Part shown: positions 1 to 55,678 of the stretch, piece after piece
Numbering within the stretch: the stretch's first letter is position 1
Layout of the letters: the number at the start of each line of letters is the position of its first letter
Virus record (IMG/VR): IMGVR_UViG_3300021085_000038
Span: 1-55,678 of that record
DNA length: 55,678 nt
Reading direction: 5' to 3' (one strand)
Source of the DNA: a virus
Notes under the pieces: model-generated
Told to the model about the DNA's origin: nothing
Seen by the model: the letters and a program-made list of their open reading frames with translations, nothing else
Database searches by the model: none
Program-made: the position numbers and the translations under genes

Positions 1-584
1 GCAGGAGCATTAAGCGCTTGTGCGCCCCCTGCTGTGTTATTGGATGCATGGTAGCCTCCAGCGTGAGATGACTTTATCTCTTTCCAATTCGTACCATTAA
101 ATATAATTGCTTCGTTAACACCGTCTACAAAGCATATATTATTACCAGTACCAAAGTTAAACTGTTGGTGGCGTAATCTATTAACCGTTAATCCGTTTGC
201 AGTCATAGAACGTGTAACACTGTGATCTAAGGTAAACTTACGCCAACCTATAAATGCAGTGTAGTAATAGAAGCTATAAGTACTAGCACCTGCATCTTGT
301 CGTGCAGCTATAACAGTTGTACTTGCGGTTACATCATTCTTAAAAATAGCAATGCCAAGGACTTTACCTTGGCCTGTAGATGCACCTGCTACTGTAACTT
401 CACCATAATCAGGATCGTATTCATCATACCCCTCAATACGTCGATAGCCGCCAAATAAGGATGGCTCAAAGTTCAACATACGTGTAGCTGCGCCTGGACT
501 GTTATCCGATAAATCTAAATGATTTTCATTGGAATTCAGGCCACCGTTACAAACTAATTTGAAAGATTGTATTTGATCAGGCAT
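1..584 (-). CDS. Tail tubular protein B-like, N-terminal part (partial, strain variant)
   Basis: The start codon is at 584 and the reading frame stays open to the window edge, giving the first ~194 residues of a protein that is complete at 53245-54921. The first residues, MPDQIQSFKLVCNGGLN, match the complete copy except for N to A at position 13. The start overlaps the stop of the upstream tail tubular A gene by one base (TAATG), so the two are translationally coupled. The product should form the distal tube or nozzle of a short podovirus tail. It is truncated only by the contig edge, and it probably represents the allele of a co-occurring strain. Confidence 0.85.
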   Translation of the reverse strand, partial: MPDQIQSFKLVCNGGLNSNENHLDLSDNSPGAATRMLNFEPSLFGGYRRIEGYDEYDPDYGEVTVAGASTGQGKVLGIAIFKNDVTASTTVIAARQDAGASTYSFYYYTAFIGWRKFTLDHSVTRSMTANGLTVNRLRHQQFNFGTGNNICFVDGVNEAIIFNGTNWKEIKSSHAGGYHASNNTAGGAQALNAP

Positions 585-1273
585 TAATATCTAACTCGTG
601 TGTCACGAATGTATTCGTAATTATTAATGTATAAAGTTTGTAAATCCTTGATACCTTTCTCAAAGGCTATGAACGATGCCTGAGAAGCTTCAAGGTTATC
701 TTTAAACATATACAGGTGATACAAAGCACCATCTACTAAGACTGTATCGTAGCTATCAGGAATTCTAGTAACATCATCCGCTGCCGTAATATCAGAGTAG
801 TTCTGGTAGTATCTAAATTTTAATGTGTAGGCTTTATCTGGCGATGGGCTAACACCGTAGCCATTACCATGCGAAGAGAATACAAAGCGTGGTACACTGA
901 TACCATCTGTACCTGATGCGTAATCATTATCCCTGTGGTTCTTATACCACTCGTCACGATCTATATGCTTCAAGGTCGTGAAACTTACACCTTGTGCTGT
1001 ATCTTCTTGGATTTGAAAGCTGTTCCAATCAGCTATTTTATAAAATGAAGGCCATGTATATTCTTCCTGACCCACAACCAATGTATCTGTTTCTTCAGCG
1101 GCATTGAAAGGCCACTCAAACTCAGCTTGGTTTATTTTAGCTACCGCAGATTTTACAGCATCTTTAACAAGTGCTTGTACTCCAGAAGCAGATGCAAAAT
1201 CACCTTCCACAAGCTCAACTTCGTTTAGTCGGCGTAGTACTTGATTACATAAACTTATATAGGTGCTAGGCAT
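584..1273 (-). CDS. Tail tubular protein A-like (strain variant copy)
   Basis: A 229-residue protein beginning MPSTYISLCNQVLRRLNEVE. It resembles the T7 gp11 tail tubular A / head-tail adaptor family in its N-terminal helix, its length and its place between the capsid and tail tubular B genes. It should form the ring that joins the portal to the tail nozzle. It is about 92 % identical to the copy at 54921-55610, with roughly 18 scattered substitutions concentrated at residues 21-30. It lies 56 bases downstream of the capsid stop. The family call is by motif and synteny; function in this phage is inferred. Confidence 0.85.
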   Translation of the reverse strand: MPSTYISLCNQVLRRLNEVELVEGDFASASGVQALVKDAVKSAVAKINQAEFEWPFNAAEETDTLVVGQEEYTWPSFYKIADWNSFQIQEDTAQGVSFTTLKHIDRDEWYKNHRDNDYASGTDGISVPRFVFSSHGNGYGVSPSPDKAYTLKFRYYQNYSDITAADDVTRIPDSYDTVLVDGALYHLYMFKDNLEASQASFIAFEKGIKDLQTLYINNYEYIRDTRVRY

Positions 1274-1295
1274 ATTGTACCCTTAGATAGAGGAA

Positions 1296-1321
1296 TGGGG
1301 CTAACAGATTAGCCAGCCCCA
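1296..1321 (-). terminator. Hairpin between capsid and tail tubular genes
   Basis: A perfect 7-bp inverted repeat (TGGGGCT / AGCCCCA) with a 12-base loop lies between the capsid stop and the tail tubular A start, and is identical at 55633-55658. No convincing T-run follows on either strand. It may be a pause, an RNA-processing or 3'-end-stabilising element, or a partial terminator that lowers tail gene expression relative to capsid. Confidence 0.4.
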
Positions 1322-1329
1322 TAAAAAGT

Positions 1330-2651
1330 TTAAGCTGCGTTATATTTCGCAGTAACCAACGCTTCTGGGCGTAGGATTTTTCTACCGTAAAGGTGCATCC
1401 CTCTAACGATGTCTGCAAAGCTATCTGGATCACGGTATGTTTCCGTTTTGTTGATCTGTTCTGCTGTTGCCACCGCTGAGTCATGTCCAGCTACGATAAC
1501 ACCGAAATGGGCGTTGTTATTCGCTGCACCTGAATGCCCTGCACCGTTTCCGACTGCTGGTAGGTTTGATGATGTATATACACGGAAGCCGTGGAAGTTA
1601 TTTAACACCAATCCGTTACGAAGCGCACCTGAGTCACCGTAATCGGCGTTCAAGAAGCGTGAATCTTCGTCAGCTAGTAGTTCCATAAATACTGGATCTA
1701 CACATAACCAACGACCTGCTGAATCAACTTGATTTTGATCCAATAGACGCTTCATACGAGCTACAACCATTGCTGGTGAACATGTAGCTGTAGGTAGTGC
1801 TGTTGCACCTGGTAAACGTGCTGCTAATGGAATCGAATGATCTCCAGCAGAAGTTGTTGTAATGTTACCAAATGAACCTTTGTTTAACTTCATTGAAGCT
1901 AACAATTCGTCAGAACCTGCTGCTGTATCCGCTTTAGAACCATTTACTTGGTCGTTAACTGCGGCTGCATTAGCATGTAAAGCAGACTGCTTATAACCTG
2001 ATAAATAGCCAAGAACTTCTTGGTCATACTGATCAGCTAAACGGTGTGCTGCACGGTCTGTTGCAAGGGACATAAAATTCACATGACTAAACTGGTCCTC
2101 GATATCATCCATCTTGAAAGCAAAGTAGTTAGCTTTGTCGATTGTTAATGAAAAATCGGCATCAGTTAAATCTTGTGCAGCTATGGTCGTGCCACGCTTG
2201 TACTGCGACACAGAAATTTCTGGTTCTTTGATAATTCTGCAATATGTTCAAATAAGATCGTTAGTTCTTATTCCGCTTTTTAAAGCTGCTACATGTCGCC
2301 ATGTAGATCAGACCATATCATCATCCACTGGGGATGCTCTGCGCTTCGAGCCACTTGGCTCTACTTCCTGTCGGAATGGTCGTTGGACGTTCCTATTTCT
2401 AGGCTTCGCTGCTGATTGTCTCGTGGAGATGTCCCAGCAATTCACAGAGTTTTTCGAAGTAGATTGCTCTACTAAGCCGCCAAATTAACGGTATCACCTT
2501 GGGATGCAATTTCCCCAAAGTAATCAGAGTTAGTGATAGCACCCGTAACAGTATTCTTGCGGAATGCGAGTTGGACTTTCTTCGAATAAATTACACTCGA
2601 AAAATTTCCTGAGTTGAGGTTGGTGTACCCCGATGCTTTTGCAATTGCCAT
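1330..2651 (-). CDS. Major capsid protein, gene split by a group I intron
   Basis: The coding sequence is the join of exon 1 (2488-2651) and exon 2 (1330-2236), 1071 nt encoding 356 residues. The ATG at 2651 follows an AAGGAG ribosome site. Exon 1 ends in GDT plus two bases of a Val codon; exon 2 supplies the third base, giving the continuous junction GDTVIIKEPEISVSQYKR. Without splicing, the reading frame stops five codons past the junction (VNLAA, then TAG). Exon 2 has the features of a podovirus HK97-fold capsid protein (DFSLTIDKANYFAFKMDD, and C-terminal RKILRPEALV). It forms the icosahedral shell. The gene follows the scaffold gene and precedes the tail tubular genes. The capsid assignment rests on position and sequence character; the split is seen directly. 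Confidence 0.9.
2237..2487 (-). ncRNA. Group I self-splicing intron in the capsid gene
   Basis: The intron is 251 nt with no endonuclease gene. On the minus strand P1 pairs exon CCGUU with intron GGCGG, giving the expected U-G at the 5' splice site after ...ACCGU. Intron AAUU can pair with the first exon 2 bases AAUU as P10. Further helices are P2 (AGTAGA, GCAA loop, TCTACT), P6 (CCTA, GAAA loop, TAGG), P8 (GAGCC/GGCTC), P7 (GACCAT/ATGGTC), P9 (CTACATG, GCGA loop, CATGTAG) and P9.2 (AATAAGA/TCTTATT). The P3-P4 strands AATTGCTGGGA and ATCAGCAGCGAAGCC look like the conserved core. The last intron base is G, as required. Exact end positions are chosen because they restore the reading frame and satisfy P1 and P10. 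Confidence 0.93.
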
Positions 2652-2908
2652 TGTATGTACTCCTTGTGAAATGGCTAGGCCGAAGCCTGAACAAAACCGA
2701 AGAGGACAATTAAGTGGCAGTGATAAATAAGGGTGCGAATAACTATGAAGTTGCAACTAAATAGCAGACGGGCCTCAACACACTGGTAGACTAAACGTCG
2801 ATATTCTTCTGTATTATATTAAGACATAGAGGTAGACCGTAAGGTGGCTCTATTCTGTAGTTGAGAAATTTAGCTCTCAGAAGATATGTCTTTAGAAGAC
2901 GTATCATT

Positions 2909-2950
2909 AAAAAGCTGGGAAGGGGCGAGTCGTATAATCTTCGCCTCTTC
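2909..2950 (-). terminator. Terminator-like hairpin in the capsid leader
   Basis: The 338 bases between scaffold stop and capsid start (2652-2989) hold no gene. Near the scaffold end, a 10-bp inverted repeat (2919-2928 with 2941-2950, one A-C mismatch) is followed on the minus strand by CCAGC and five T. Closer to the capsid start is a TGCCACTTAATTG box (about 2709-2721), but no good promoter hexamers are next to it. The layout suggests attenuation of read-through, or a separately controlled capsid transcript. I see nothing else in this stretch. Confidence 0.4.
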
Positions 2951-2989
2951 ACCTTTATTATAACATTAGTTAGGTGTCATTGCAACACC

Positions 2990-3769
2990 CTATCTAGCGC
3001 CACCACTTAGATCATAATCAAAGTTACCAGTTTGCATGGCTTCTTCAATTGCTTCTACATTCTTACCAAATTCAATATTACTCATTTGCTGTACTTGGCT
3101 TTCAGAGAACGTAGCTCTTCCTGCGGCTTTAGGTGTAGATGATGATGTTCGACCTACAGAGTGTGCTGCTGATTTAGATTTAGATTTTGTAGTAGATCTA
3201 CTCATATCGTATTTATATAAGTCAATAGCACGAGAAGCGGATCTAGCATCAGAATTGTTTTTATACAGAGCATTTTGAGTATCTATAGTTTGTTCTGCTA
3301 CCCAATCATGAAAACTTTGATCTTGTCGTATTTGATTAAAGTCAGGATGCATTTTAAGAAGTTCTTGTTCAGCTTCCTTTTTGGTAAGCTTAGTTTCTAA
3401 CTGACGTAATCCTTCCATACGCTTTTCGCCCTCTGCAAGTGCTTCATTAGCACGTTTTTGAGCGATGCTATCCACAATCTTTGCTACATCAGGATATTTC
3501 TTAGACCAGACATCAATCTCTTCATCTGTCTTAGGAAACTTAATCTGACCTTTGGCGGCCTGATCTAGTTGAGCTTTCATTTTTTGTAGCTCTTGATCCT
3601 TTTGTTGCATCAACTGCTGCGAGTGTCGTCGGAGATCACCATATCGTTTCTTATATGTTGTATCTTCGCCTTCGACTACTTCAGAATCTTTTGCAGGATT
3701 TTGAGCTTCAAGCTCTTCTGCATAAGATAGTCCATTGTCTTCATCTTCTATTCTTCGATATTTTGCCAT
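2990..3769 (-). CDS. Scaffolding / capsid assembly protein
   Basis: A 259-residue, highly charged protein immediately upstream of the capsid gene. Residues ~45-75 (rich in Q, K, E with heptad spacing) and ~100-140 are predicted coiled coil, and residues ~190-220 form a Ser/Lys/Ala-rich low-complexity linker. HPDFNQIRQDQSFHDWV is typical of podovirus scaffolds. Such proteins guide procapsid assembly and leave before DNA packaging. There is no sign of a protease domain. The call rests on composition, length and the order portal, scaffold, capsid. Confidence 0.78.
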   Translation of the reverse strand: MAKYRRIEDEDNGLSYAEELEAQNPAKDSEVVEGEDTTYKKRYGDLRRHSQQLMQQKDQELQKMKAQLDQAAKGQIKFPKTDEEIDVWSKKYPDVAKIVDSIAQKRANEALAEGEKRMEGLRQLETKLTKKEAEQELLKMHPDFNQIRQDQSFHDWVAEQTIDTQNALYKNNSDARSASRAIDLYKYDMSRSTTKSKSKSAAHSVGRTSSSTPKAAGRATFSESQVQQMSNIEFGKNVEAIEEAMQTGNFDYDLSGGAR

Positions 3770-3809: not shown

Positions 3810-4910
3810 TTAAGATATAAATGCATAACTCTTTCGTTGCATCACACTTGGTAGGTTTGATGTACGTGGGGAAATCTCCTCAGTTTCCTCATCGTCATCA
3901 AGTTTGTCGTCTACTTCTACAGTAGCGACTTCGACTTCGATGTCCTCTTCAGGAGCATCTGTTTCTGCTGCTTCTACCTCTTCAGGTTCTTCAGCACCTT
4001 CTTCGTCTGTGTACTGGATAAGCCCAGTATCATACATGCTCATCAAGCCCATCTCGGCTTCTGATTGCATATCCATAATATGTTTTAGGCCGTGCCATTT
4101 AACTACGTTGGCAGGGAGAACGTATTCACCTTCAGATATCATTACCTCGATATCATCCCGTACATTTTCTGCACTAGATCCCATTGGTATTTCGTTACCG
4201 CTTTCTGGATCGGACATCATACCGCAAGCCATACCGCCATGAGACATCTCTATAAGCTCGTCATCATCCATAGCTTTTTGTATGGCTTCGCCTGTAGTTT
4301 CTTCATATTTACTTAATTTACCGTCACCATTCTTATCGGCTTTTTTACGGTCTAATTGAAATTTCTTCTTAGCCATATCCTGTCCTTCAACTGTTTTAAT
4401 TCCCTTGTTAGCAACTGCCAGACCGCCCAGCGCAAAGCCTGTTTTTTCATCATCAGAAATGCCAAACACACCATAAACTTTGTCTCTAGCTCCTGCCGCA
4501 AGATCAATCATGTCTTGCTTTCTATCTGCCCAACTGGTGTCAGAACCATCTTGTTTAGAGTACAGGCCTGATTCACCTGCATAGAACTCTTGTTCTGATA
4601 GATCGAAATTAAACATGTTATCTGAACGCCATATAGAATAGGCATCCGCAGTTGTAACATCTTCGAATACAGGTAGCTTTTCACCTGTAAATATATCGTA
4701 AGGGCCATTCTCTTTATAATGTTCGAATAGCTTATCCAAATCGTAAAATTCTCCTGTAGTAGGATCAATTGTAGGTGACACGATTTGACCATCGCCATAT
4801 TCAAATGACATAGATTTTTCAGAGTACGGTTCATCATTCTCGTCGTTAATCCAAACAGGCTTACCGTTACGGGTTTTTGCACCTTTAACTTTTCTAGCAT
4901 TCGTATTCAT
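3810..4910 (-). CDS. Head-gene-cluster protein with an EF-hand loop
   Basis: A 366-residue acidic protein between the portal and scaffold genes. A canonical EF-hand calcium loop is visible at residues 192-203 (D192, N194, D196, K198, S200, E203 in DKNGDGKLSKYE). Residues ~255-280 (ISEGEYVLPANVVKWHGL) form a motif I recognise from phage head-region proteins of unknown function. The tail (~300-345) is almost entirely Glu, Asp and Val. The start overlaps the stop of the upstream 71-residue gene by one base. A structural or assembly role that responds to seawater calcium is conceivable, but it is an inference. Confidence 0.7.
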   Translation of the reverse strand: MNTNARKVKGAKTRNGKPVWINDENDEPYSEKSMSFEYGDGQIVSPTIDPTTGEFYDLDKLFEHYKENGPYDIFTGEKLPVFEDVTTADAYSIWRSDNMFNFDLSEQEFYAGESGLYSKQDGSDTSWADRKQDMIDLAAGARDKVYGVFGISDDEKTGFALGGLAVANKGIKTVEGQDMAKKKFQLDRKKADKNGDGKLSKYEETTGEAIQKAMDDDELIEMSHGGMACGMMSDPESGNEIPMGSSAENVRDDIEVMISEGEYVLPANVVKWHGLKHIMDMQSEAEMGLMSMYDTGLIQYTDEEGAEEPEEVEAAETDAPEEDIEVEVATVEVDDKLDDDEETEEISPRTSNLPSVMQRKSYAFIS

Positions 4911-12030: not shown

Positions 12031-12486
12031 TTATTTAGTAATACCCGATATGCAGCCGATGGCTTCTGATACAGGCAACTTAAACCATTCACCTCTACGA
12101 TCCTGAGATATAGCCGCAAGCTTTTGGTGAGCTATAGATTCATCTTCCCTACGATTGGTAGAAGCAAATGAATACTCAACTACATAATCCCTAAACGGAC
12201 TACTGGTCTGGTAATTACAACATCTATCTGCTGCATCGATAGCCATACCAACCTTTACCCACTCAGGCCAAGCAGGATTAGATATTATATAAACATGCCC
12301 TGCCTTAACCTGGTTATACTGTCTAAGTGCAGTCTGGTGTATGCTTAAAGCTAAACGCTTTAGGCGATTGCGTTTCCCCTTCTTGGAATCACAAACACGG
12401 CATATATAATTATTCTTACGGACGTTACCAATAGACCAGTTAATATTATCTAAAAGCACATCACAATGATTGCAGCACTTATTCAT
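12031..12486 (-). CDS. GIY-YIG nuclease of the T5orf172/MUG113 type with zinc ribbon
   Basis: A 151-residue protein. Residues ~4-36 hold CCNHC and CRVC, a likely zinc-binding pair. Residues ~63-145 (GHVYIISNPAWPEWVKVGM, then CNYQTSSPFRDYVVEYSF, EDESIAHQKLA and GEWFKL) match the compact GIY-YIG fold of the T5orf172/MUG113 group. Such free-standing nucleases are often homing endonucleases or DNA-cleaving accessory proteins. It overlaps the upstream 106-residue gene by 8 bases. It is the only recognisable homing-type nuclease in a genome that also carries an endonuclease-less group I intron. Confidence 0.75.
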   Translation of the reverse strand: MNKCCNHCDVLLDNINWSIGNVRKNNYICRVCDSKKGKRNRLKRLALSIHQTALRQYNQVKAGHVYIISNPAWPEWVKVGMAIDAADRCCNYQTSSPFRDYVVEYSFASTNRREDESIAHQKLAAISQDRRGEWFKLPVSEAIGCISGITK

Positions 12487-53244: not shown

Positions 53245-54921
53245 TTATCTTCTCCCTGCCGCACTAAATTCGAAGACTAAGCCTTGAATTGAGAATGGTT
53301 CTGATTGTCCGTCTGTCACAAAAGTAGCTCGAACTGAAAAGCCCGAACCTTGAATATCCGATGTCATGATCGGTTTGGATGCACCGCCGTAAATCACGTT
53401 TGCTCCACTATAAGTAATATTACGCCCAGCGTAGATCGTAGGCGCACCAGCAGATGTCTGCGTATATGTAGAAGGTACTGATGTATTGTAATCGCCCCAA
53501 TCATAATCAATAGCGAGGTTCATCTCGAATGGCCCTTCGGCACGTATGAATGTATTTAGTTTTCGAATAACTTTTCGTTGTTCTGTCTCACCGAAATCTA
53601 GATAAGGTGTAGCGTAAACAGATATAATATTAGAGCCGTTAAAGCTCGTTCCATTTTCTTGGCGATAGACTTTACCATCATGATCTCCGTGTAAAATAAG
53701 TTCGTCTGTGCCTACATAATCAGACGTTGCACAGCTTGCTCGTATGCCTAGTAGCTCACCAAATTCCCACTCAATTGAACCTGAAGTGTCAGTCAGTCCA
53801 CCAATGATACCGATAGCATCTGTAGCAGCTACAACAGTCCCACTATTGGTTGTGGTAACAAAGTACCGTACCTGTGACTTAGAACGTATAACAACGCCTG
53901 TTAAAGCGTCCATGTCTTCGTTCTTAATAAGATCAACAAGTGTAGATTGTATTGGCTTAGATAAAGTTTCTAGCTCGATATCGCCAACTCTAGAAGTACC
54001 AGCAACAGGTCTAAACCCATCAGGAGACAGGAACATTAAGTCTCCACCGATCTCTAGTACGCTATCTCTAGCCACGCAGCCGATGTTACTTGTTACGTTC
54101 TCTAATGCAAAAGCATTTGATGCACTAACTGTAATCTTCTTGATATTCTTATTACCAAATACAAATAGATTATCACGGAATGGTTTGATCTGTACGACAT
54201 CAAAGCCAGCCGCTATCTGTCCACCCCCTGCTGCAACTGTCCAGGTATAAGGATCGTTTGGTGCAGAGTGTGCTATAGCCGCCCTACTAGCTTCATGACC
54301 ACCTAAGAACAAATGGTTTTCAAATACATCTACTAGCGCAGGAGCATTAAGCGCTTGTGCGCCCCCTGCTGTGTTATTGGATGCATGATAGCCTCCAGCG
54401 TGAGATGACTTTAGCTCTTTCCAATCTGTACCGTTAAATATAATCGCTTCGTTAACACCATCTACAAAGCATATCTTATTACCAGTACCGAAGTTAAACT
54501 GTTGGTGTCGTAGTCTGTTAACAGTTAGGCCGTTTGCGGTCATAGATCGTGTAACACCGTGATCTAAGGTAAACTTACGCCATCCTATAAAAGCAGTATA
54601 ATAGTAGAAGCTGTAAGTACTAGCACCTGCGTCTTGTCGTGCAGCTATGATAGTTGTGCTGTTGGTAACGTCATTCTTAAAGATGGCAATACCAAGTACT
54701 TTACCTTGACCTGTAGATGCACCTGCTACCGTTACTTCACCATAGTCAGGATCGTATTCATCATAACCCTCTACACGACGATAGCCGCCAAAGAGGCTCG
54801 GCTCAAAGTTCAACATACGTGTAGCTGCGCCTGGACTGTTATCCGATAAATCTAAATGATTTTCATTGGAGTTCAGGCCACCTGCGCATACAAGTTTGAA
54901 GGACTGTATTTGATCTGGCAT
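53245..54921 (-). CDS. Tail tubular protein B-like (nozzle)
   Basis: A 558-residue protein, complete copy of the one truncated at the left edge. It is beta-rich, with repeated propeller-like strands (NLFVFGNKNIKKITVSASNAF, DLMFLSPDGFRPVAGTSRVGDIE). It follows tail tubular A with a one-base overlap, as in T7-like phages where gp12 forms the nozzle under gp11. It is 3 bases upstream of the long fibre gene. The assignment rests on order, size and character. Confidence 0.82.
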   Translation of the reverse strand: MPDQIQSFKLVCAGGLNSNENHLDLSDNSPGAATRMLNFEPSLFGGYRRVEGYDEYDPDYGEVTVAGASTGQGKVLGIAIFKNDVTNSTTIIAARQDAGASTYSFYYYTAFIGWRKFTLDHGVTRSMTANGLTVNRLRHQQFNFGTGNKICFVDGVNEAIIFNGTDWKELKSSHAGGYHASNNTAGGAQALNAPALVDVFENHLFLGGHEASRAAIAHSAPNDPYTWTVAAGGGQIAAGFDVVQIKPFRDNLFVFGNKNIKKITVSASNAFALENVTSNIGCVARDSVLEIGGDLMFLSPDGFRPVAGTSRVGDIELETLSKPIQSTLVDLIKNEDMDALTGVVIRSKSQVRYFVTTTNSGTVVAATDAIGIIGGLTDTSGSIEWEFGELLGIRASCATSDYVGTDELILHGDHDGKVYRQENGTSFNGSNIISVYATPYLDFGETEQRKVIRKLNTFIRAEGPFEMNLAIDYDWGDYNTSVPSTYTQTSAGAPTIYAGRNITYSGANVIYGGASKPIMTSDIQGSGFSVRATFVTDGQSEPFSIQGLVFEFSAAGRR

Positions 54922-55678
54922 TAATACTTAACCCGTGTATCACGAATGTATTCGTAATTATTAATGTATAAGGTTTGTAAGTCTTTGATACCTTTTTCAA
55001 AGGCCATGAACGAAGCCTGAGAAGATTCAAGATTATCTTTAAACATATAGAGATGATATAAAGCACCATCTACTAAGACAGTATCATAGCTATCAGGAAT
55101 ACGTGTAACATCATCTGCTGCTGAGATATCAGAGTAGTTCTGATAATATCTGAATTTTAATGTGTATGCTTTATCAGGCGATGGGCTTACACCGTAGCCA
55201 TTACCATGAGAAGGGAATACAAAGCGTGGAACACTGATACCATCAGTACCTGATGAATAATCATTGTCTCTGTGGTTCTTATACCACTCGTCACGTTCTA
55301 TGTATTTTAGCGTAGTGTAACTTACACCTAGTGCTGTATCTTCTTGGATTTGAAAGCTGTTCCAATCAGCTATTTTATAAAAAGAAGGCCATGAATATTC
55401 TTCCTGACCTACAACCAATGTATCTGTTTCTTCAGCGGCATTAAAAGGCCACTCGAACTCAGCTTGGTTTATCTTAGCAACCGCTGCTTTCACTGCATCC
55501 TTAACCAATGCTTGAACGCCAGTAACTGAATCAAAAGCACCTTCCGCAACTTCAACTTCGTTTAGTCGGCGTAGTACTTGATTACATAAACTTATATAGG
55601 TGCTAGGCATATTGTACCCTTAGATAGAGGAATGGGGCTAACAGATTAGCCAGCCCCATAAAAAGTTTAAGCTGCGTT
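54338..55678. repeat. Right terminal copy of the 1341-bp repeat
   Basis: Collinear with 1-1341 with no insertions or deletions. The last 127 bases (55552-55678) are identical to 1215-1341 and include the capsid-tail hairpin (55633-55658). Joining at this match gives a closed genome of 54,337 bp. Confidence 0.93.
54921..55610 (-). CDS. Tail tubular protein A-like (main strain copy)
   Basis: A 229-residue protein, allele of 584-1273. It is joined to tail tubular B by a one-base overlap. Differences from the other copy are mostly conservative and spread along the gene (for example VELVEGDFASASG against VEVAEGAFDSVTG), as expected for orthologs under purifying selection in related strains. The last 12 bases of the window (55667-55678) are the end of the capsid gene (Asn-Ala-Ala-stop) on the minus strand. 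Confidence 0.87.
   Translation of the reverse strand: MPSTYISLCNQVLRRLNEVEVAEGAFDSVTGVQALVKDAVKAAVAKINQAEFEWPFNAAEETDTLVVGQEEYSWPSFYKIADWNSFQIQEDTALGVSYTTLKYIERDEWYKNHRDNDYSSGTDGISVPRFVFPSHGNGYGVSPSPDKAYTLKFRYYQNYSDISAADDVTRIPDSYDTVLVDGALYHLYMFKDNLESSQASFMAFEKGIKDLQTLYINNYEYIRDTRVKY

Follow-up and report, generated by a model that had tools for sequence, protein, structure and literature searches.

In an HMO-2011-like phage, an ORF-less group I intron interrupts the major capsid gene at one of several intron insertion sites

The DNA described here is a 55,678-nt virus record (IMG/VR IMGVR_UViG_3300021085_000038), analysed over its whole length and referred to below as the window. On its minus strand lies a major capsid gene that is split by a 248-nt insertion, the features of which are collected in Table 1; we call the insertion point, in codon 55, site A. 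The spliced gene specifies a protein of 357 residues that is 68% identical to the HMO-2011 coat protein over its full length and up to 77.9% identical (CRP-13) to the coat proteins of Roseobacter phages, with HMO-2011 and CRP matches covering 99-100% of the protein, and that matches PHROG 267, major head protein. Intron-free capsids from 80 contigs, HMO-2011 and the CRP phages are collinear with the spliced gene, and no related capsid translates the inserted segment; these 80 are the best full-length relatives in a ranking that favours uninterrupted genes, and their intactness is hence no estimate of frequency. Exon 1 runs into an early in-frame stop in 19 of the 19 site-A introns checked, the window included (a different codon in contigs L233 and L343), while exon 2 is open in all 108 capsids of the exon-2 tree. 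The dependence of full-length capsid on removal of the insertion follows from the sequence, since exon 1 alone ends at this stop. An earlier note on this DNA had described a split major capsid gene with a stop soon after exon 1, and had suggested alignment with intron-free capsids of HMO-2011-type phages; the intron, the gene it interrupts and the stop are borne out.

Table 1. Positions of the capsid exons, the intron and its structural elements in the window.
Feature	Position	Strand	Remarks
Capsid exon 1	2488..2651	-	164 nt; start codon at 2651; codons 1-54 + GT of codon 55, MAIAKASG...QGDTV; aligned to intron-free capsids
ORF-less group I intron	2240..2487	-	248 nt; RF00028 83.2 bits; nhmmer positions 1-248 at 2487-2240
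Capsid exon 2	1330..2239	-	C of codon 55 to stop (at 1330); C AGA ATT ATC = (V)RII...KYNAA*; PHROG 267 1.2e-61
P1 + P10 region	2477..2491	-	sequence and fold; pairing kept in L224, L233
P1	exon CCGU 2491-2488 with GCGG 2480-2477	-	CCGU is the end of exon 1; splice-site U.G
P10	guide 2484-2481 with exon 2 CAGA 2239-2236	-	pairing kept in L224, L233
In-frame TAG ending translation of unspliced exon 1	2472..2474	-	
P2 hairpin AGUAGA-GCAA-UCUACU	2458..2473	-	4/6 pairs compensated in L233/L343
P3, encloses P4-P7.2	2337..2449; strands 2449-2443/2343-2337	-	
P4	2439-2434/2415-2410	-	
P5	2429-2426/2422-2419	-	
P6	2403-2400/2395-2392	-	covaries
P7.1	2376-2373/2368-2365	-	covaries
P7.2	2361-2357/2352-2348	-	
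P7 pseudoknot GACCA/UGGUC	2311..2381; 2381-2377/2315-2311	-	U-A to C-G covariation
P8	2336-2332/2326-2322	-	
P9, GCGA loop	2306-2300/2295-2289	-	compensatory pairs
P9.1	2286-2283/2278-2275	-	compensatory pairs
P9.2	2272-2266/2257-2251	-	compensatory pairs
Terminal G of intron	2240	-	identical in all complete site-A homologues

The insertion has the sequence and fold of a group I intron. A covariance search with the Rfam group I model RF00028, as the earlier note had proposed, gives a match at 2289-2497 on the minus strand (83.2 bits, E 9.9e-20, model positions 1-253) against a curated gathering threshold of 50 bits, at which the 55.7-kb window matches no other Rfam family; the minus strand folds 3.3 SD more stably than its shuffles. 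Helices P2, P3-P8, P9, P9.1 and P9.2, among which the note had recognized P2, P6, P7, P8, P9 and P9.2, are present and covary where they are variable, and GNRA loops cap P2 (GCAA), P6 (GAAA) and P9 (GCGA). We examined covariation in an alignment of 14 site-A introns, 13 of them distinct, with helices P2-P9.2 written out and P7 treated as a pseudoknot. Standard pairs fill 99.3% of the cells and compensatory changes occur in 17 of the 64 pairs across the 13 distinct homologues; none of 500 shuffles reaches these values of pairing and compensation, and sliding the partner strands lowers pairing to 30-44%. Both P6 and the P7 pseudoknot covary, and P3, P4, P5, P7.2 and P8 are paired but invariant among site-A introns and neutral as to covariation. 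The structure and its covariation are thereby demonstrated for the site-A intron. Introns of the T4-like subgroup IA generally have hairpins P7.1 and P7.2, placed after the 5' strand of P7 and before the 3' strand of P3; both occur here, P7.1 with three compensated pairs, and on this criterion the intron probably belongs to the subgroup. The 248 nt contain no endonuclease ORF, and stops lie in or beside the intron in all three forward frames, which agrees with its earlier description as endonuclease-less.

The same intron occurs at the same codon in other viruses. Scanning IMG/VR for the end of exon 1 followed by the intron P4 sequence yielded 17 contigs at this codon, 16 with a complete 248-nt copy and one (L215) hybrid, and core and profile searches found two more (L233 and L343, with introns of 258 and 252 nt in capsids of 54-65% identity), so that 18 contigs besides the window and L215 carry a complete site-A intron. 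RF00028 found no match in 50 records of intron-free capsid relatives, and the exact site-A core found none in bacterial genomes; a lenient DNA scan was discarded, since the matches inspected were chance matches and none was a capsid intron. In L215 (3407-3960, reversed orientation) the 5' half of the site-A intron is joined to the 3' half of a codon-96 intron and codons 56-95 are lacking. The hybrid may have arisen when two introns recombined ectopically, or by misassembly; the contig was treated as one or the other and excluded from the counts.

Comparison of these copies with their host genes shows identical introns in capsid genes that are only ~70-85% identical. The pairs L209/L213 and L212/L213 share identical 248-nt introns with exons at 81-85% identity, as do L220/L223 with exon 2 at 72% and L210/L216 with exon 1 at 67%; part of this conservation relative to the exons is expected, because RNA structure constrains the intron. 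At least seven changes of intron state are needed on the exon-2 tree of 108 capsids. Between 690 bases before and 477 bases after the site, the filled allele L206 and the empty allele L002 differ by the intron and four bases only (-3, +1, +2 and +4), all synonymous (ACA/ACC, GTT/GTC, CGT/AGA) and all at positions that pair in P1 or P10. The simplest reading of this pair is that L206 gained the intron by very short-tract conversion from a filled donor; the mirror case, loss by a similar conversion, is possible, as in principle is assembly switching between strains within the ~35 nt of shared flanks, and some chimeric patterns (L210, L215, L223 and possibly L206) could reflect how short reads from a shared intron were assembled and not recombination. 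Empty and filled alleles and a spread over diverged capsids are demonstrated for site A, and from the identical introns in diverged genes together with the L206/L002 pair it appears that the intron moves between capsid alleles without an endonuclease of its own.

This distribution bears on what the intron does for its host. The earlier note had suggested that splicing could delay or tune capsid synthesis, and only a general argument, that splicing takes time, speaks for retention of the intron as a regulator of capsid timing. Its patchy presence, with the near-identical L206 and L002 respectively filled and empty, argues against a needed regulatory role, and the several sites and types of intron in this one gene (see below) resemble parasitic insertion; the proposal finds no support here and we regard it as very unlikely. 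With high confidence we instead see the element as a complete, ORF-less group I intron of the T4-like kind that is a mobile and nearly neutral passenger of a hotspot gene and moves between alleles as a short block.

The boundaries of the intron can be fixed by comparison with its relatives. The 5' boundary is at 2488|2487, where the earlier note had set it; the 3' end, which the note had put at 2237 to give 251 nt, lies at 2240 (...CATATTG), with the 3' splice site at 2240/2239. Splicing restores the reading frame, as was claimed, but the product is GDTVRIIKEPEIS and not GDTVIIKEPEIS; at the nucleotide level the ligated junction is ...GGTGATACCGT|CAGAATTATC..., with GT|C AGA ATT ATC read as V-R-I-I. 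We assign a length of 248 nt because four observations agree. All 76 readable intron-free relatives have an extra residue (K, R, Q or N) between V and II, which is R also in the closest of them (L002 and L003). L224, L233 and L343 carry A at position 2237 whereas 2240 is G in all homologues, so that the terminal G of the intron is the one at 2240 and not that at 2237, where the note had ended it; the intron ends are ACATTG|TAAAATTATC in L224 and CATAATG|CAAAATTAT in L233 and L343. The 248-nt junction lets a P10, a helix for which the note had seen complementarity, stack on P1 through C-G, A-U, G.U and A-U pairs between exon 2 and the nucleotides immediately 5' of the P1 guide, and equivalent pairs form in L224 (U.G, A-U, A-U, A-U) and L233 (C-G, A-U, A-U, A-U). 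Finally, the exact ligated junction GATACCGTCAGAATTAT occurs uninterrupted in 11 intron-free capsid genes; we rejected these 11 as evidence of splicing, as they are intron-free genes ~52-68% identical to the intron-bearing alleles. An intron of 251 nt would also be in frame and end in G in the window, and a different P10 (AAUU/AAUU) could be formed with it, yet it would remove the residue that every readable intron-free relative possesses, would end in A in three homologues and would leave P10 unstacked from P1, which makes it very improbable.

In the model that follows from this structure, the transcript would fold into the group I form, guanosine would attack after the U at the end of exon 1 (2488), and the exons would join to encode the uninterrupted 357-residue capsid protein. 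That the site-A intron splices in the cell, and does so efficiently, we infer from the sequence. In a rival reading it would be a degenerate remnant that no longer splices, and the capsid gene would be inactive or translated in two parts; the GTG-started ORF of 293 aa in exon 2 could fit this. Such a remnant is as improbable as the longer intron, given that the core is complete and under persisting pairing constraint, that the exons are open and in register across the site-A alleles, and that the capsid is essential and a non-exhaustive reading of the window ORFs showed no second capsid gene. An assembly artefact, in which an unrelated intron was joined to the capsid gene of a metagenomic contig with mixed strains at its ends, is more improbable still, since the separate record L208 matches a 4,550-bp stretch of the window that includes the intron at 99.7% identity and thus rules out a private assembly error, and the filled arrangement recurs in ~15 metagenome datasets, as judged from contig names. 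The two ends of the window (1-1341 and 54338-55678) align without gaps at 90.0% identity and are two alleles of a tail gene, the right-end one of which (97.6%) adjoins the capsid gene in L225; the window probably represents a circular genome of ~54.3 kb, with two strain variants at the point of closure.

Site A is one of about eight insertion sites within the first 107 of the 357 codons, and introns are so frequent in this capsid gene that it is a hotspot; the clustering of the sites is only suggestive, as two of them were what the DNA scans had been aimed at. Short or apparently ORF-less introns lie at codon 20/21 (L224, L226, L229 and L329), codon 96 (L227 and L302), codon ~99 (L384) and codon 106 (L226-L229 and L243), and introns with a LAGLIDADG_2 endonuclease ORF lie at codons 43/44, ~48-51 and 61/62. 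A search with the endonuclease as query, which targeted no position, found 39 contigs with a LAGLIDADG copy inside this gene. Several genes are interrupted more than once: L224, L226, L227, L229, L302 and L384 have two introns each, those in L227 (~2600-3170, minus strand) being ORF-less and flanking a ~10-codon mini-exon (KMDDIEEAHS), and L367 (the same contig as L308) has three successive LAGLIDADG-encoding introns at 780-3744 with mini-exons of a few codons between them. The site-A profile scores 105-130 bits against the ORF-less introns at codons 20/21, 96 and 106; the LAGLIDADG introns of codons 43/44 and 61/62 match it weakly (~26-50 bits), and descent of the site-A intron from either by ORF loss is therefore not supported. 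A single lineage for all capsid introns was likewise set aside: a tree of 82 cores gave no single group, and this tree, poorly resolved and with partly unreliable site labels, was not used. Group I cores also occur in phage sequence with no capsid match, seven within a few kb in L298 (3513-7130) and three in L304 (4495-5429), and L383 has a weak group I profile match (4515-4732) just 3' of its capsid match.

The search for an endonuclease that might act in trans on site A identified none that cuts there, and the window has no LAGLIDADG match. It does encode a T5orf172/MUG113 (GIY-YIG-like) ORF at 12031-12486 on the minus strand, with a possible zinc-binding N-terminus and a 91% identical copy in L212, which by its sequence is a candidate free-standing endonuclease. 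Trans homing by this ORF is not favoured, as its relatives occur in the intron-free contigs G035 and G050 and in CRP-2 and CRP-235, were mostly not found in intron-bearing fragments and do not track the intron.

The site-A core has a counterpart in the DNA polymerase intron (annotated Intron_gpI) of Escherichia phage vB_EcoM_G2285, with 75% identity across 85% of the intron. An intron has also been suspected in the DNA polymerase of related OM43 phages (PMC10580990). The ORF-less and mini introns of T4-like and phiKZ-like phages likewise interrupt conserved protein genes; theirs are polymerase or nucleotide-metabolism genes, whereas site A lies in the capsid gene of an HMO-2011-like podovirus. 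Introns in phage capsid genes are already known. The major capsid intron of the Cluster J mycobacteriophage LittleE, with splicing shown by RT-PCR and N-terminal sequencing, also has an exon 1 ending in U and an intron ending in G, but it is 819 bp long, contains a LAGLIDADG-type ORF, was called most likely group I and resides in an HK97-like siphovirus (PMC3706429); a capsid-subunit intron of lactococcal Tuc2009 is cited in the same paper. In the human gut, crAss-like phages of the Delta and Zeta groups carry several group I introns per MCP gene, with one MCP ORF in five fragments; these were identified by their endonuclease domains, in contrast to the ORF-less site-A intron (PMC7886860). The Jug phages, huge gut phages, have many short group I introns averaging ~206 nt, with terL and nrdD as named examples; for 37 of 76 introns, metatranscriptome reads bear out the splicing (PMC12363816). 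Collaborative (trans) homing resembles the case of site A in that an ORF-less intron spreads at a fixed site, but there a known free-standing endonuclease cuts the intron site (PMC3984707). A search of the open literature found no report of HMO-2011-type capsid genes with introns. What is new here is the frequency of the introns, their ~8 sites and their apparent passage between near-identical viruses, an unusually clear case of mobility.

Our comparative data suggest how such an intron might spread. It would travel as a short block together with a few bases of both exons, and at the DNA level this would occur by gene conversion, for which an endonuclease from another element may provide the start. 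More tentatively, and with greater doubt than conviction, we propose that group I introns are actively traded in the HMO-2011-like capsid gene: those without an endonuclease would spread by conversion tracts of tens of bases or less, and the exchanged block would be approximately the intron with its P1 and P10 partners. If this is true, short-tract spread would favour an unknown trans-acting endonuclease, or reverse splicing followed by DNA copying, over classical long-tract homing. The near-isogenic filled and empty alleles, with their four silent differences on P1 and P10, offer a clean natural system for the spread of introns without endonucleases. Among marine phages the HMO-2011 type is well known, and its capsid gene is an obvious marker; because that gene can be interrupted at about eight places, automated gene calling, marker-based surveys and PCR would miss or break capsid alleles.
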